This document shows positions 15,405 through 20,394 of a stretch of 33,260 nucleotides of DNA, piece after piece; position 1 is the first letter of the stretch, and each line of letters opens with the position of its first letter. The notes under the pieces were generated by a model. The model saw nothing but the letters and a program-made list of their open reading frames with translations. It had not been told where the DNA came from and ran no database searches. The DNA comes from an uncultured Aliivibrio sp. GTDB taxonomy: Bacteria > Pseudomonadota > Gammaproteobacteria > Enterobacterales > Vibrionaceae. The stretch covers positions 1-33,260 of the forward strand of contig NZ_CAMLHO010000035.1 in assembly GCF_946479765.1 (NCBI RefSeq), in the 5' to 3' direction. Made by a program: the position numbers and the translations under genes.

Positions 15405-15641
15405 TTGGCTATATATTAAGCTATATTAGTATTGTGTCCGTTTGCTCTACAATTTGTTGGTTCTAATTTTTAATTTTGTGATCTTAATTATAGCCCGTAC
15501 TAAATTACTCAAATATTAGACTTGACTTATTGCTTTGTAAAATAATGTAAAATTGAGTTGATCATATCAATATCAAGCGTATGATTCCGAAAAACTGAAA
15601 CCACTTTTGGGCTACTTTCCTTCAGTTCTGGAGCTTTTATG

Positions 15642-16514
15642 ATGCAAAGAGCACTTTTTGTACTTTGCCTATTGTTTTTATCTCACTCTCCTTCTTTATT
15701 CGCAGAATCTTTTACACTACCCATTTGGAAAAAAGAAGCAGAAGCGCGTGGCTATACACTGCCTGAAGCGTTTGGTCTGAACGTCAGTTACATGAAGCAA
15801 ACTCAAGATATCTCGGTAGATAGTATTGGTTTTGAGGGGACTATTCCCGCGTTGTTCCCTTGGAAGCCACCTCATCAAATTAGTAATTTAGTTGAAATAG
15901 ATGCAGTTGGTACTGGTAAACAAATGAGTGAAGTCCTTACCTTACGTGGTGATGTTTGGTTATTTCCTTTCTTAAATTTATACGGAATTGTAGGGCAGCT
16001 TAAAGGATATTCAGAAACTGATATAAAGATAGATCTAAAAACTTCGAAAGGGAATAGACCACTAGGAACTACCCCCTTCAGATTGGATCTTAATGGTACA
16101 CTTTATGGAGCCGGTTTTGTTCTGGCTGGTGGCTATAAAGATATTTTTGCATTAGTAGATGCTAGTTATACTGAAACTAATTTAAATGTTATTGATGGTT
16201 CAATCTCTTCAATTGTTATCTCTCCACGTATAGGGTATGACTTCGCTCGAATGGGAGCTCCCGTTCGCCTATGGGTTGGTGCTATGTATCAAGATGTAGA
16301 GCAATCTTTATCTGGAAACTTAAATGATATCGGCTTAGGAGCTCTATCTGGATTAGTTGATAATGGTCGCTTTAATGTAGAGCAACACTTAATAACACCG
16401 TGGAACCCAATTGTAGGTATGCAGTATAAATTGCATGATCGACTTTATTTACTGGGTGAGGCGGGGTTTGGTAACCGTACAAGTTTATTCTTAAGCGTTG
16501 ATATGCGATTTTAA
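15642..16514 (+). CDS. Outer-membrane beta-barrel protein, first gene of an envelope trio
   Basis: About 290 residues with a cleavable signal peptide (LFVLCLLFLSHSPSLFA, cleavage probably before ESFT). It continues with alternating hydrophobic strands and ends in Phe (FLSVDMRF), the C-terminal signature that the BAM machinery recognises. It is therefore very probably an outer-membrane barrel of roughly 8-12 strands. The early part (PIWKKEAEARGYTLPEAFGLNVSY) is a short periplasmic plug-like or amphipathic segment. I do not recognise the family with certainty. GGAG precedes two adjacent ATGs (15639 and 15642); the spacing favours the second. Its stop is 3 bases before the Omp85-like gene, so the two are translationally linked, and a third gene follows 11 bases later. 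Confidence 0.75.
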   Translation: MQRALFVLCLLFLSHSPSLFAESFTLPIWKKEAEARGYTLPEAFGLNVSYMKQTQDISVDSIGFEGTIPALFPWKPPHQISNLVEIDAVGTGKQMSEVLTLRGDVWLFPFLNLYGIVGQLKGYSETDIKIDLKTSKGNRPLGTTPFRLDLNGTLYGAGFVLAGGYKDIFALVDASYTETNLNVIDGSISSIVISPRIGYDFARMGAPVRLWVGAMYQDVEQSLSGNLNDIGLGALSGLVDNGRFNVEQHLITPWNPIVGMQYKLHDRLYLLGEAGFGNRTSLFLSVDMRF

Positions 16515-16517
16515 ATC

Positions 16518-17642
16518 ATGAAGTTATTAACTATATCGACGGCAGCTTTACTAAGTTGCTGCGCATTTTCGATCTCTGCGAAAGAGAAGCCACAAAGCTG
16601 GGTTGATACTTTTCTTGAAGAATTAGGGTCATCTGAAGATATTGACGTCAGTAAAGGTGTCGATTGGGCTGTACTCCCCGGGCCTTTTGTTAATCCTGAA
16701 CAAGGTTTTGGCATTGGCGTTGCGGCTGTTGGTTTATATTCACCACTTAAAGATAAAGAAAGCGCACCGTTATCAACCATTAATATTACTGGTTATGGTT
16801 CAACGTCTGGATCTTACGGTGTTGGGGTTAATAATCGAACCTATTTTGAGAATGATGACTTACGTTTATTGGTTCAAGCTAAAGCTAGTCATACTCCTGA
16901 ATATTATTGGGGAGTAGGTAAATCAGCGGCAGAAAATGAGAATAATAAAACCCTCGTTGAGGCTCAAATTCTCGGATTTACTCCGAAAATTGCTTATCAA
17001 TTCTTACCGAGTACGTACTTTCTTATCGGGGTTGATATGGAGAGTTATCGCAATATTTCATCAGATACCTCTATGCTGACACAGAATGAACTGAGTGATA
17101 CGTTCTTAAGCGCTTCTACATTGAGCATTGAATACGACAGTCGCGATTTCGAGTTAAATGCACATAAAGGAATGCTATTTAGTGTTAATTGGAATGCGTA
17201 TCGTACTGAGTTTGGTTCAGATTATGACTTTGATAAAGTAACAGTAAATTATCGTCAATATCAAAAAGTATTACCTAATACTGTATTGGCATGGGAAGTG
17301 TTTGCTGAAGATGTACAAGGGGATATTCCTTGGTTTGCTCTGTCATCTTTAGGTAGTGATAAGCGAATGAGAGGCTATTATTCTGGTCAATATCGAGATA
17401 ATAGTCAGTTATCCGCACAAATTGAAATTCGCCAACAATTCACTCAACGACATGGAATGGTCGCGTGGGTCGGTGGTGGTAATGTTGCAGGTTCTCATCA
17501 AGATCTACTTGATAGCAAGTGGCTACCGACTTATGGTATAGGTTATCGTTTTGCGTTTAAACCAAGAGTTAATGTAAGACTTGACTATGGATTAGGGAAA
17601 GACAGCCAAGCGGTCTATTTTCAAATAAATGAAGCATTTTAG
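16518..17642 (+). CDS. Omp85/BamA-like surface-antigen barrel without POTRA domains
   Basis: A 374-residue protein with a signal peptide (LLTISTAALLSCCAFSISA). It consists mainly of an outer-membrane barrel of the bacterial surface antigen (D15/Omp85) family. Supporting features are the start of the barrel VLPGPFVNPEQGFGIGVAA, the strand pattern SLSIEYDSRDFELNAHKG (YDSRD...P/HKG is typical of the family), the MRGYYSGQYRD loop corresponding to the conserved VRGF/Y motif, and a C-terminal Phe (FQINEAF). At this length there is no room for POTRA repeats, unlike BamA or TamA, so it probably does not insert other proteins by the BamA route. Only about 50 residues precede the barrel. It is the middle gene of a tight trio with another barrel and a DUF4056-like protein. 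The family is fairly sure, the role unknown. Confidence 0.82.
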   Translation: MKLLTISTAALLSCCAFSISAKEKPQSWVDTFLEELGSSEDIDVSKGVDWAVLPGPFVNPEQGFGIGVAAVGLYSPLKDKESAPLSTINITGYGSTSGSYGVGVNNRTYFENDDLRLLVQAKASHTPEYYWGVGKSAAENENNKTLVEAQILGFTPKIAYQFLPSTYFLIGVDMESYRNISSDTSMLTQNELSDTFLSASTLSIEYDSRDFELNAHKGMLFSVNWNAYRTEFGSDYDFDKVTVNYRQYQKVLPNTVLAWEVFAEDVQGDIPWFALSSLGSDKRMRGYYSGQYRDNSQLSAQIEIRQQFTQRHGMVAWVGGGNVAGSHQDLLDSKWLPTYGIGYRFAFKPRVNVRLDYGLGKDSQAVYFQINEAF

Positions 17643-17653
17643 AGAATAAGTAA

Positions 17654-18712
17654 ATGAAGAATACAGTAACCACGCTTATTATTAGTAGCTTATTATCGAG
17701 TTTGTCTTTCTTTGCTGTGGCTGATGCTGATGCGCCGGCAGGAGTAAGACCCTGCTGCGCGTTTGGAACCAATCTAAAAACAGAGGTAGGCGGGATCCCG
17801 GTGCCGTTTGTATTAGTAGAGAATGTAATGAATATCAAGGATCTTGGTGTTCATATCTATAACGATGGTTCTCAAGGAATTGCTAGCAGTTTGATGGGCT
17901 TAGGAGATGAAAGTAATGGCATATTTTACTCTGAAAAGGGGGGCTTTTTAGATTCTGCTCATATTCGTGATACTGCGGATTTTACTTATTATCTTTATGG
18001 TGAGTTCTATAAGCATTTAGGGAGTGACTATAAAGTGATGCTGTCACCTGAGTTAAAAACTCGTATTATACAACTACATCCTACATATCAAGAATACACT
18101 CAAGTAGAGCGACAAAAGATCAGTATTGAGCTTGCTGCATTAACATCTTATCGTTTGGCACAGTGGCATGAAATTGCTCAATGGTTTGGTATGGAGTCGG
18201 TCGGTGGTTTTAAAGAGTACGCCTCGGCGTTTTCGCCAGAAGATCTTTATTCGAATATGCTGGGAGCTCTTTTAGCAAGTGATGTTATCAGTGTTAATCC
18301 AAATTTAAACAAAGATGCATTTTCTACGGCAATGACGAAGGCAATAAATACAAAATTTATTGAGTTAGGTGTTGGCACTAAAGAAGAATCAAAAGCGCAA
18401 ATTCAAAAAATGGATGGGATCTGGTGGGACAGTTCTAAGCGGTTGCCAAATAAATGGGTTGTGATCCACAGAGAGTATCACTTAGGAACCGATTTACAAC
18501 CAAATGGCTTTAAAGGTGAAGTTGAAGAGAGTGTTTCAACTGAATATGAAGCATTAGCTACGTTTATGTTAATGCCAAATGAAAATGATAAAGATTTTTC
18601 AGCATTACCTAACTCGTTAAAAAATAAACCTTATTGGACGCCAAGTGATTTTCAGGCAATTGCTGATTTTGCTAAAGCGCATGATGATAAAGAATTGGCG
18701 ACGAAAAGATAA
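17654..18712 (+). CDS. Periplasmic DUF4056-like protein, third gene of the trio
   Basis: A 352-residue protein with a signal peptide (LIISSLLSSLSFFAVADA). The mature start PAGVRPCCAFGTNLKTEVGG (a Cys-Cys pair) recalls the DUF4056 family, as do GGFLDSAHIRDTADF and YRLAQWHEIAQWFG; I am moderately sure of this from memory. The spaced His/Asp/Glu residues (DSAHIRD, HEIAQW, FSPEDLYSN) look like a metal or catalytic site. HEIAQ is close to but not the HExxH peptidase motif. No membrane segment follows the signal, so it is probably periplasmic or outer-membrane attached. It lies 11 bases after the Omp85-like gene, the last gene before a strong shared terminator. Function unknown; a hydrolase acting at the envelope is a guess. 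Confidence 0.7.
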   Translation: MKNTVTTLIISSLLSSLSFFAVADADAPAGVRPCCAFGTNLKTEVGGIPVPFVLVENVMNIKDLGVHIYNDGSQGIASSLMGLGDESNGIFYSEKGGFLDSAHIRDTADFTYYLYGEFYKHLGSDYKVMLSPELKTRIIQLHPTYQEYTQVERQKISIELAALTSYRLAQWHEIAQWFGMESVGGFKEYASAFSPEDLYSNMLGALLASDVISVNPNLNKDAFSTAMTKAINTKFIELGVGTKEESKAQIQKMDGIWWDSSKRLPNKWVVIHREYHLGTDLQPNGFKGEVEESVSTEYEALATFMLMPNENDKDFSALPNSLKNKPYWTPSDFQAIADFAKAHDDKELATKR

Positions 18713-18728
18713 TTAAATAATGTGTAAT

Positions 18729-18780
18729 AAAAAGCCCCGAACAAGTACTTTAATTTAAAGTATTATTCGGGGCTTTTTTT
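18729..18780. terminator. Bidirectional terminator between the envelope trio and the BCCT gene
   Basis: AAAAAGCCCCGAA pairs with TTCGGGGCTTTTT (arms about 18729-18741 and 18766-18778) with T-runs on both strands and an inner AT-rich secondary hairpin. It serves two convergent units. Confidence 0.92.
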
Positions 18781-18792
18781 ATCTTTTATTAA

Positions 18793-20394
18793 TTATGCTT
18801 TTGCTTTATTTGATTTTGGAATAGTGCCGTATTTCTCAGTACTAAATCCTTTAACTAAACTTACGCACATTAAAAGTAAGATAAAAGTAAATGGTAACGC
18901 TGTAGAAACAGTACCGGCTTGCAGTGCTTGCATCGCTTCAGTCCCACCAACCCATAATAATACGGCAGCGATAGAACCTTGAACGATTGCCCAGAAAATG
19001 CGTTGTGGTACTGGCGCATCTACTTTACCACCAGCGGTAATACTGTCGATAACCAATGAACCTGAATCTGATGATGTTACAAAGAACACCATGATTAGGA
19101 TGATTGAGATCACAGAAAGAGCAGTGCTCATTGGCAATGCATCATACATATTAAACAATGCCATTGTGATGTCTTGTAGACCATTTTCACCAAGCTCACC
19201 GACTTTGTTCGTGACTTGTTTCATAGCGATACCACCAAAAGCCGACATCCATAATGCGGTTGCTGCTGTTGGGATTAGCATTACTGAAATCAAGAATTGA
19301 CGAACCGTACGGCCTTTCGATACACGTGCAATGAACATACCTACAAATGGAGACCATGAAATCCACCATGCCCAGTAGAATACTGTCCAACCGTGCATCC
19401 AACCTTCATCAGGACGACCGTGTGGATTACTTAGTGGAATGATGTTCTCGATGTAGCCCATAACCGTTAATGGTATTGCTGCCATGACATCAGAAAATCC
19501 GATGATGATAATGAAAATAAGTAAGGCAAGAGCAACAAGCATATTTACATTACTAAGTAGTTTTACACCACCATCAATCCCACGAATAACCGAGATCATT
19601 GCAAGCATTGTAACAAAAATGATGACACCAATTTGCATATTGACGCCGCCATTAGTACCAAATACATGGTTGATACCACCAGCGGCTTGTTGTGCGCCTA
19701 AACCAAGAGAGGTTGCAAGGCCAAATAATGTCGCTAATACGGTTAAGATATCAATGATATGACCAAACCAGCCCCATGTTCTGTCACCTAAAATAGGATA
19801 GAAAACAGAACGCATAGATAGCGGTAAGCCTTTGTTAAACGTAAAGAAAGCTAAAGAAAGAGCAACAATACCGTAAATAGCCCAAGGGTGAATACCCCAG
19901 TGATACATAGTTGCACCTAATGCTAATTTTCTTGCTTCTTCAGTCAATGGTTCAACCGCTAGCGGTGTACCATACCAATCAGTAAAGTAAGCTACAGGCT
20001 CAGCAACACCATAAAACATTAACCCAATACCCATGCCAGCAGCAAATAGCATTGCCATCCATGAAATAGTGGAATGTTCAGGTTTTGCGTTATCGCCACC
20101 AAGGCGGATCTTACCAAAAGGAGAGATAATTAGAAGTAAACTGAAAACAAGGAAGATATTACTAGACCACATAAATAAACCATCAAAGTTATTGATGATG
20201 CTTAATTTTACGCCGTCAAGAATGGATTTTGCTTCTGTTGGGTCCATAACCAGAAGAACAGTAAGAAATAAAATAATTGCACCAGCGCTAATACCAAAAA
20301 CTTGGTTATGTATATCAAAACCCCATTTTTGAATATTGTCTTGCCCAATTTCATAATCAGTACTGTCAATGCTGTACTTATCCGTAGTACTCAT
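18793..20394 (-). CDS. BCCT-family betaine/choline/carnitine-type transporter
   Basis: A 533-residue inner-membrane transporter with about 12 helices. Family hallmarks: AAGMGIGLMFYGVAEP (GMGIG at 120-124, the flexible ion/substrate-coupling segment) and the tryptophan box WAWWISWSPFVGMFIARVSKG (Trp341, 343, 344 and 347 lining the quaternary-ammonium site). It imports a trimethylammonium or similar osmolyte such as glycine betaine, choline or DMSP; the sequence alone does not decide. The N-terminal extension of about 30 residues and the short C-terminal tail lack a long osmosensory domain like that of BetP. It is a single gene; the upstream 199 bases hold its promoter and the yiaV terminator. 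No betaine synthesis genes are adjacent. Probable role: osmoprotection in a marine bacterium. Confidence 0.92.
   Translation of the reverse strand: MSTTDKYSIDSTDYEIGQDNIQKWGFDIHNQVFGISAGAIILFLTVLLVMDPTEAKSILDGVKLSIINNFDGLFMWSSNIFLVFSLLLIISPFGKIRLGGDNAKPEHSTISWMAMLFAAGMGIGLMFYGVAEPVAYFTDWYGTPLAVEPLTEEARKLALGATMYHWGIHPWAIYGIVALSLAFFTFNKGLPLSMRSVFYPILGDRTWGWFGHIIDILTVLATLFGLATSLGLGAQQAAGGINHVFGTNGGVNMQIGVIIFVTMLAMISVIRGIDGGVKLLSNVNMLVALALLIFIIIIGFSDVMAAIPLTVMGYIENIIPLSNPHGRPDEGWMHGWTVFYWAWWISWSPFVGMFIARVSKGRTVRQFLISVMLIPTAATALWMSAFGGIAMKQVTNKVGELGENGLQDITMALFNMYDALPMSTALSVISIILIMVFFVTSSDSGSLVIDSITAGGKVDAPVPQRIFWAIVQGSIAAVLLWVGGTEAMQALQAGTVSTALPFTFILLLMCVSLVKGFSTEKYGTIPKSNKAKA

Follow-up and report, generated by a model that had tools for sequence, protein, structure and literature searches.

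A conserved gene cluster encoding two predicted outer-membrane barrels and a DUF4056 protein of the Lipocone superfamily, a possible lipid-remodelling cassette

The DNA considered here (the window: 33,260 nucleotides, the forward strand of contig NZ_CAMLHO010000035.1, assembly GCF_946479765.1) comes from an uncultured Aliivibrio sp. whose assembly comprises 120 contigs and 3.80 Mb, and it carries three consecutive genes, A, B and C, that form the subject of this analysis. The trio had been singled out in an earlier note, made from the letters alone, as encoding a small barrel, an Omp85 barrel devoid of POTRA domains and a DUF4056-like periplasmic protein. Each product starts, as judged by eye, with a signal-peptide-like stretch, and in the open reading frame (ORF) list of the window A and B are separated by 3 bases and B and C by 11 bases. 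Downstream lies a hairpin with a U-run, equalled in folding energy by 0 of 200 shuffled sequences and absent from the list of a simple terminator scanner; the short gaps and this single strong terminator (Table 1) bear out the claim that three exported proteins are made together. The site of the trio was also right, its start at 15642 being however the second of two adjacent ATG codons, with ORF A running from 15639. The ratio of nonsynonymous to synonymous substitution rates (dN/dS) lies between 0.05 and 0.15 in 15 comparisons (three genes, five Aliivibrio loci), which indicates purifying selection on A, B and C and hence that they are real genes.

Table 1. Features of the trio and its immediate surroundings, with positions counted in the window
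Feature	Positions	Strand	Description
Gene A	15639..16514	+	291 amino acids; exported outer-membrane beta-barrel, predicted to have 10 strands, whose N-terminus bears a conserved periplasmic helix motif (LPIWKKEAEARGYTLP)
Gene B	16518..17642	+	374 amino acids; Omp85-superfamily barrel without POTRA domain
Gene C	17654..18712	+	352 amino acids; exported DUF4056 protein whose Lipocone domain is of CapCone type, with H103, E173 and D197 as predicted active site
RPCCAFG segment of gene C (residues 32-38)	17747..17767	+	Invariant vicinal Cys34-Cys35 directly past the signal peptide
Strong palindromic terminator	18724..18782	+	Fold of -26.5 kcal/mol, z -7.66
Transporter gene	18793..20394	-	533 amino acids; neighbour outside the module, from ORF reading

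The product of gene C matches the Pfam family DUF4056 (PF13265) with E 1.3e-110 and 369 bits against a cut-off of 23.6, so that the earlier label stands, and the same family is matched by 40/40 members of set A5. DUF4056 was placed in the Lipocone superfamily, as CapCone-DUF4056, by Burroughs, Nicastro and Aravind in 2025 (PMC12419801; this and the other papers cited by PubMed Central accession are drawn on in part), with an HHpred p of 2.5E-05 published for the link, obtained with another query. Lipocones are predicted there to cleave or exchange phosphate-linked lipid head groups, and the signature given for CapCone-DUF4056 consists of an H2 His, an H3 Glu, an H4 Asp, a Gly at -6, SxxSxxD and an Asn at +4. 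The window protein carries it as G97-FLDSA-H103, E173 in HEIAQW, S191-AF-S194-PE-D197 and N201, with F193-S194 as the aromatic-Ser at -3 and S200-N201 as the small-Asn at +4. Residues G97, H103, E173, S191, S194, D197 and N201 are kept in 56/56 relatives, and in a broader set that includes plasmid copies G97, H103, E173, S191, D197, S200 and N201 are kept in 40/40 and S194 in at least 90%. The alignment also has C34, C35, H103, D106, H172 and E173 in 56/56 rows; the His and Glu residues, whose variation among homologues was to speak against the earlier proposal, thus do not vary, and C was rightly read as enzyme-like from its spaced His/Glu motifs. In the structure model of C (mean predicted local distance difference test, pLDDT, 73; predicted template modelling score, pTM, 0.80), helices span residues 101-121, 150-177 and 195-214, and H103, E173 and D197 sit on three successive helices with a local pLDDT of about 91, 65 and 72. 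This medium-confidence model also places strands 90-93 and 97-100 ahead of helix 101-121, the published family having a beta-hairpin clasp into H2. As far as can be judged from sequence, the His/Glu/Asp set is predicted to be the Lipocone active site proposed in PMC12419801.

A metal-dependent enzyme, which the earlier note had proposed from DSAHIRD and HEIAQW, was considered and rejected: C matches only DUF4056 in Pfam and nothing in NCBIfam, hence no metal-enzyme family in either, and its residues fit the published Lipocone site. The guess of an enzyme was right in spirit and wrong in chemistry, and the accompanying statement that no function had been described is outdated, predicted biochemistry for the superfamily being in print (PMC12419801). 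The Pfam scan of 40 C members gave, in addition, one weak VanZ row at chance level (E 0.18). The vicinal pair Cys34-Cys35 lies outside the published Lipocone signature as given in the parts of PMC12419801 drawn on here, though it is invariant in 56/56 relatives. A lipobox at this Cys-Cys was likewise rejected for the window protein, in which the pair stands about 9 residues beyond a Sec-like signal peptide with no lipobox.

Gene B belongs to the Omp85 superfamily. Its product matches the Pfam family Omp85 (PF01103) over the cut-off (E 4.5e-11) in an alignment that spans residues 92-374, and a profile of 33 relatives matches PDB entry 9ccg_A with the match confined to the barrel part (385-675, E 2.8e-12); NCBIfam NF047779 was matched with a score under its cut-off. 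The motifs YDSRD and MRGYYSGQYRD are present, and in the alignment of relatives D207, D210 and R285 are kept in 52/52 rows and G286 in 49/52, R285-G286 being the conserved RG motif of Omp85 loop 6. No POTRA domain was matched in Pfam at E up to 1, and by eye just about 35 residues separate the signal peptide from the first conserved barrel-like segment. The barrel lacking POTRA domains is thereby supported, and since the POTRA domains of canonical members were not found, B fits the noNterm class of Omp85 proteins only.

Gene A, for which no Pfam family was matched, is predicted from its structure model to encode an outer-membrane barrel of roughly 10 strands, in agreement with the small barrel described before. 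The earlier note had made its case depend on structure prediction giving barrels; the model of A gives one, and this part of that check is the part covered. Ahead of the barrel, at window positions 15717-15770, the N-terminus of A carries a strongly conserved helix motif (PIW..EA...GY.LP), a candidate docking or plug segment.

The conservation of the cluster was followed in an order sample of 295 genomes, 43 of which have a DUF4056 match, full length in 39; the four with weak or partial matches (G175, G020, G198 and G160) stand outside the co-occurrence count. Strong A was defined as E <1e-100 and strong B as E <1e-140, cut-offs chosen after a score gap was seen, and the A and B profiles were built mostly from clustered loci, which biases them toward such loci. 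On these terms strong A is found in 41 genomes, that is all 39 with full-length C and 2 without C, and strong B in 36 genomes, every one among the 39; the corresponding Fisher values are descriptive only, genomes being treated as independent. Looser cut-offs bring in paralogues (A in 54 genomes at E 0.001, B in 50 at E 1e-30). The three genes are adjacent in 34/39 genomes, which span six sample families, namely f1 (Vibrionaceae, as judged from shared contigs), f2, f6, f10, f11 and f19. Among the remainder, B is missing from G071 and G083, A lies elsewhere in G257, C stands alone at the site in G099, and in G080 a divergent B adjoins C with a strong B elsewhere. In a class sample DUF4056 was matched in 4/369 genomes, at full length in the own genome of the window only, the three outside the order being partial; in a phylum sample it was matched in 9/299 genomes, all at full length and all inside the order. 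Among named relatives, nine Aliivibrio records come closest to gene C, with 74-88% identity; an Aliivibrio fischeri strain (L040) is one of the carriers of the cluster.

A locus set was then assembled from the order sample and 18 named loci, giving 56 distinct full-length loci (L060 duplicates L038 on the same contig and is counted once). Intact trios make up 46/56 of them, in the orders A-B-C (24), A-X-C-B (12), A-C-B (6), B-A-B-C (3) and A-B-X-C (1), where X is an additional gene. The others are three split-frame loci, read as decaying copies (B in L037, A in L048, A and B in L050), L056 with a divergent B, two A-X-C loci, one B-C locus and three with C alone. The cluster is therefore kept far beyond close relatives, the opposite of an outcome that the earlier note had named as refuting, while the order of its genes varies; its distribution is much wider than a single window could show. 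The 18 loci in which C precedes B form one clade in each of three midpoint-rooted trees, built for A, B and C. Pairwise distances taken over 46 complete loci give correlations of 0.954 for A-B, 0.947 for A-C and 0.969 for B-C, values reached by 0 of 2000 permutations; by this comparison of sequences the genes fit inheritance as one unit, shared host ancestry accounting for much of the correlation.

Gene X adjoins C in 15 loci of three families (f1, f6 and f10). Its start is lipobox-like by eye in 14/15 loci, and the X proteins scanned are alpha/beta-hydrolases in 4/4 cases (PF00561, PF12697). In one of the genomes with strong A and no C (G223, locus L092), an 82-amino-acid remnant of X lies beside A. 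A raw lipobox pattern occurs in C at 20/21 loci with X or with the C-before-B order, against 3/36 other rows (L065, L075 and L087; the duplicate L060 is counted in the 36). A crude position filter brings the counts to 17/21 vs 0/36, the filter being imperfect in that the rejected L065 start reads like a true lipobox in the alignment, and the pattern misses the weak case of L052. In some families, C is apparently a lipoprotein.

The hydrolase X and the invariant Lipocone residues of C have to be set against a reading centred on B, in which the trio would be an accessory device for the assembly or translocation of outer-membrane proteins, B inserting A or secreting C. Such a role would suit an Omp85 protein, and noNterm Omp85 proteins have been suggested to act in assembly (PMC4104836), but it leaves both the residues of C and the added hydrolase unexplained and is judged very unlikely.

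Paralogues of the barrels were also encountered. Runs of A-like and B-like paralogues without DUF4056 are present at L106:6407-12947, L099:4316-11008 and L114:5875-12524, the L106 run directly following an RND pump gene, and two-barrel pairs without C also occur in L107, L108 and L109. At L100:1604-8092, where the families were scanned, an operon-like run places an A-like barrel next to a FUSC exporter and a carboxylesterase; L119:3591-10015 resembles it, as judged by similar sizes and starts only, and the A-like barrels of both have 583-586 amino acids. A second B subfamily (about 383-409 amino acids) is followed in L111, L113 and L117 by a same-strand protein of 236-270 amino acids, which is weakly DUF3108-like, under the cut-off, in L113 and matches nothing in L111. 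The two barrels together have the look of a reusable platform in the outer membrane, which may have acquired different enzymes or pumps.

An uptake or salvage module, whose barrels would admit an outside amphiphile for C and X to hydrolyse as food or for detoxification, would be in keeping with the exporter and carboxylesterase beside the long A paralogues (by size and starts in L119) and with the pump gene ahead of the L106 run. These loci hold paralogues, however, and the trio proper has no link to a catabolic gene or to one for uptake across the inner membrane, so that this alternative is doubtful.

The trio is found both in marine and in gut bacteria, some of whose plasmids also carry it. 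By tblastn, C was found in 18/72,556 plasmid records, 10 of the 18 being typed conjugative, with the reservation that several very large plasmid records resemble mislabelled chromosomes. Among the 12 of these 18 that were inspected, six carry A-B-C, two of them (L124 and L130) typed conjugative, and a Salmonella houtenae contig of a phage collection carries the trio as well; scans against phage and defence libraries gave nothing useful. In the E. coli plasmid p12A2 (L124:10851-10964), a predicted astA is annotated inside the transposase gene of an IS1414 element; the trio lies a few kb away, and IS66 genes surround the site.

On four E. coli IncF plasmids (L125, L137, L138 and L139), genes for a polysaccharide deacetylase, a glycosyltransferase and a VirK/YbjX (DUF535) protein are followed by A, an 84-amino-acid ORF and DUF4056, with no B detected. 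This is a surface-type locus, presumably shf-like, that gained A and C. A similar Shigella locus, the likeness being read from annotations, has a gene whose product adds glucose to lipid A in vitro (PMC7355660), and a surface-polymer role is one of the options named for outer-membrane Lipocones (PMC12419801). Because of the IncF gene context and the Shigella glucose transfer, a surface-polymer module stays alive as an alternative, in which C would cut or transfer a phosphate-linked glycan (lipopolysaccharide, lipid-linked capsule or another polymer) and the barrels would export or anchor it. Against it, no sign of polymer synthesis is seen beside the trio in the window, the neighbours at other loci having been ordered and only some identified. 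In addition, A is small for a polysaccharide exporter, and on balance a polymer is an unlikely, if still serious, candidate substrate.

A secreted anti-competitor effector equipped with its own export barrels is suggested by the toxin activity of related CapCone families (PMC12419801), by a DUF4056 gene of a Salmonella type VI secretion system (T6SS) cluster that is an effector candidate (PMC11669294), by a Rahnella trio lying about 3.5 kb from T6SS genes and by the patchy distribution. Yet C has an export signal, is under purifying selection in Aliivibrio and shows close covariation with the barrels; after it in the window come the terminator and the convergent 533-amino-acid gene, with no small immunity-like gene (judged for the window; other loci were ordered and not each inspected for such a gene). 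What looks like an effector branch is instead formed by short DUF4056 relatives that lack a signal peptide and sit next to a small same-strand gene (L090, L103 and L105); an effector role for the trio is judged highly improbable. The Salmonella candidate (PMC11669294) may belong to this branch. A PG_binding-OmpA-DUF4056 fusion at L102:5149-6780 is likely on the effector side of the family too.

The reading preferred here, with a probability of about one half, is that A-B-C is a mobile outer-membrane lipid-remodelling cassette working like the Pseudomonas aeruginosa protein PlpD, split into separate proteins. It is favoured because the genes cluster, A, B and C co-occur, their distances correlate, C has the Lipocone residues, X is a hydrolase, and PlpD, BamA and Lipocone-barrel operons provide precedents. 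In PlpD a patatin domain in the periplasm is coupled to an Omp85 barrel, and many phospholipids rise when the protein is deleted (PMC11116518); BamA scrambles lipids in liposomes (preprint PMC10491306); other Lipocone families, encoded alongside outer-membrane barrels, are predicted to edit the head groups of outer-membrane lipids (PMC12419801). Under this reading, B would furnish the outer membrane with a thinned or scrambling site, beneath which C, in the periplasm, would dock, and the His/Glu/Asp pocket of C would cleave or exchange the phosphate-linked head group of the presented lipid, as predicted in print for the superfamily. A might be the other membrane subunit, giving access to the substrate or releasing the product, and X, where present, might take off or transfer acyl chains of the same substrate. 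The linkage of the genes, their families and the invariant residues are observed, the barrel fold of A and the Lipocone chemistry of C are predicted, and we infer the complex, the substrate, the direction of the reaction and any surface role. Handling of lipid or surface polymer, which had been offered earlier as an example of function, is the likely theme.

Several results weigh against the lipid-remodelling reading. An hhalign comparison of the C core with six YfiM Lipocones gave P 0.07-0.09 and that with a single YfiM P 0.07, and a PDB fold search with C matched nothing; the superfamily membership of C thus rests on the published analysis and the residue match, since our YfiM comparison is not significant and no PDB fold was found. 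The scrambling precedent is BamA, not a POTRA-less barrel. Two loci with C alone (L042 and L049) belong to genomes in which A has 0 matches anywhere, the search having been made for A only, and among the 12 inspected plasmid loci four have A and C without B and two have C only. A and B are therefore not strictly needed, as C stands alone at 3/56 loci and the plasmid loci show C without B or by itself. A bolder version, a horizontally moving lipid-editing machine in which B would be a dedicated scramblase feeding the Lipocone enzyme (with an acyl hydrolase in some families) and A a co-channel, is improbable as it stands; if true, it would represent a built-in route, separate from Mla, PldA and PagP, for altering the lipids of the outer membrane.

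Beyond the trio, the convergent transporter gene, which we take to be of the BCCT type, probably shares the terminator with it. The named Aliivibrio loci, judged by size and strand, have an upstream gene of 418-434 amino acids in 9/9 cases and a downstream gene of 527-537 amino acids in 8/9.

By joining two loose predictions, that Omp85 barrels can move lipids and that head groups are cut by Lipocones, the conserved operon offers a single testable system in a tractable genus suited to laboratory work, and it may explain a surface-altering gene set on conjugative plasmids. No account of the trio was found in the literature searched (supplements lying outside the search), nor did the papers searched give a tested function for DUF4056 proteins or for Omp85 barrels lacking POTRA domains. 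Four known systems come close. As in PlpD, an Omp85 barrel is combined with a periplasmic lipid-active enzyme, but PlpD (PMC11116518) is a single fused patatin protein, whereas the trio encodes its Omp85 barrel and its enzyme separately, the latter being a Lipocone, leaves no room for a POTRA domain and adds a second barrel; because no patatin domain was matched in A, B or C (Pfam), the claim is kept to one of working like PlpD. The noNterm Omp85 class shares the barrel without N-terminal extension, and in the parts of PMC4104836 drawn on neither a partner enzyme nor an operon is described, whereas in the trio B is encoded beside a putative enzyme. CapCone-DUF4056 is represented by C itself, which carries the published signature, while the main text of PMC12419801, taken over all its mentions of DUF4056 and CapCone (supplements outside), names no barrel partner, trio or X. 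A further parallel is provided by the CapCone-2 two-gene systems (PMC12419801), in which a Lipocone enzyme is likewise joined to an outer-membrane barrel, some with a patatin or alpha/beta-hydrolase; they involve other Lipocone families, and the sections drawn on do not describe a pair made of a POTRA-less Omp85 barrel and a 10-stranded barrel. Operons that pair a barrel with a Lipocone have already been described for other Lipocone families; to call the trio a new kind of envelope module, as was done at first, is thus too strong, and it is better seen as a variant of the Lipocone-barrel theme.

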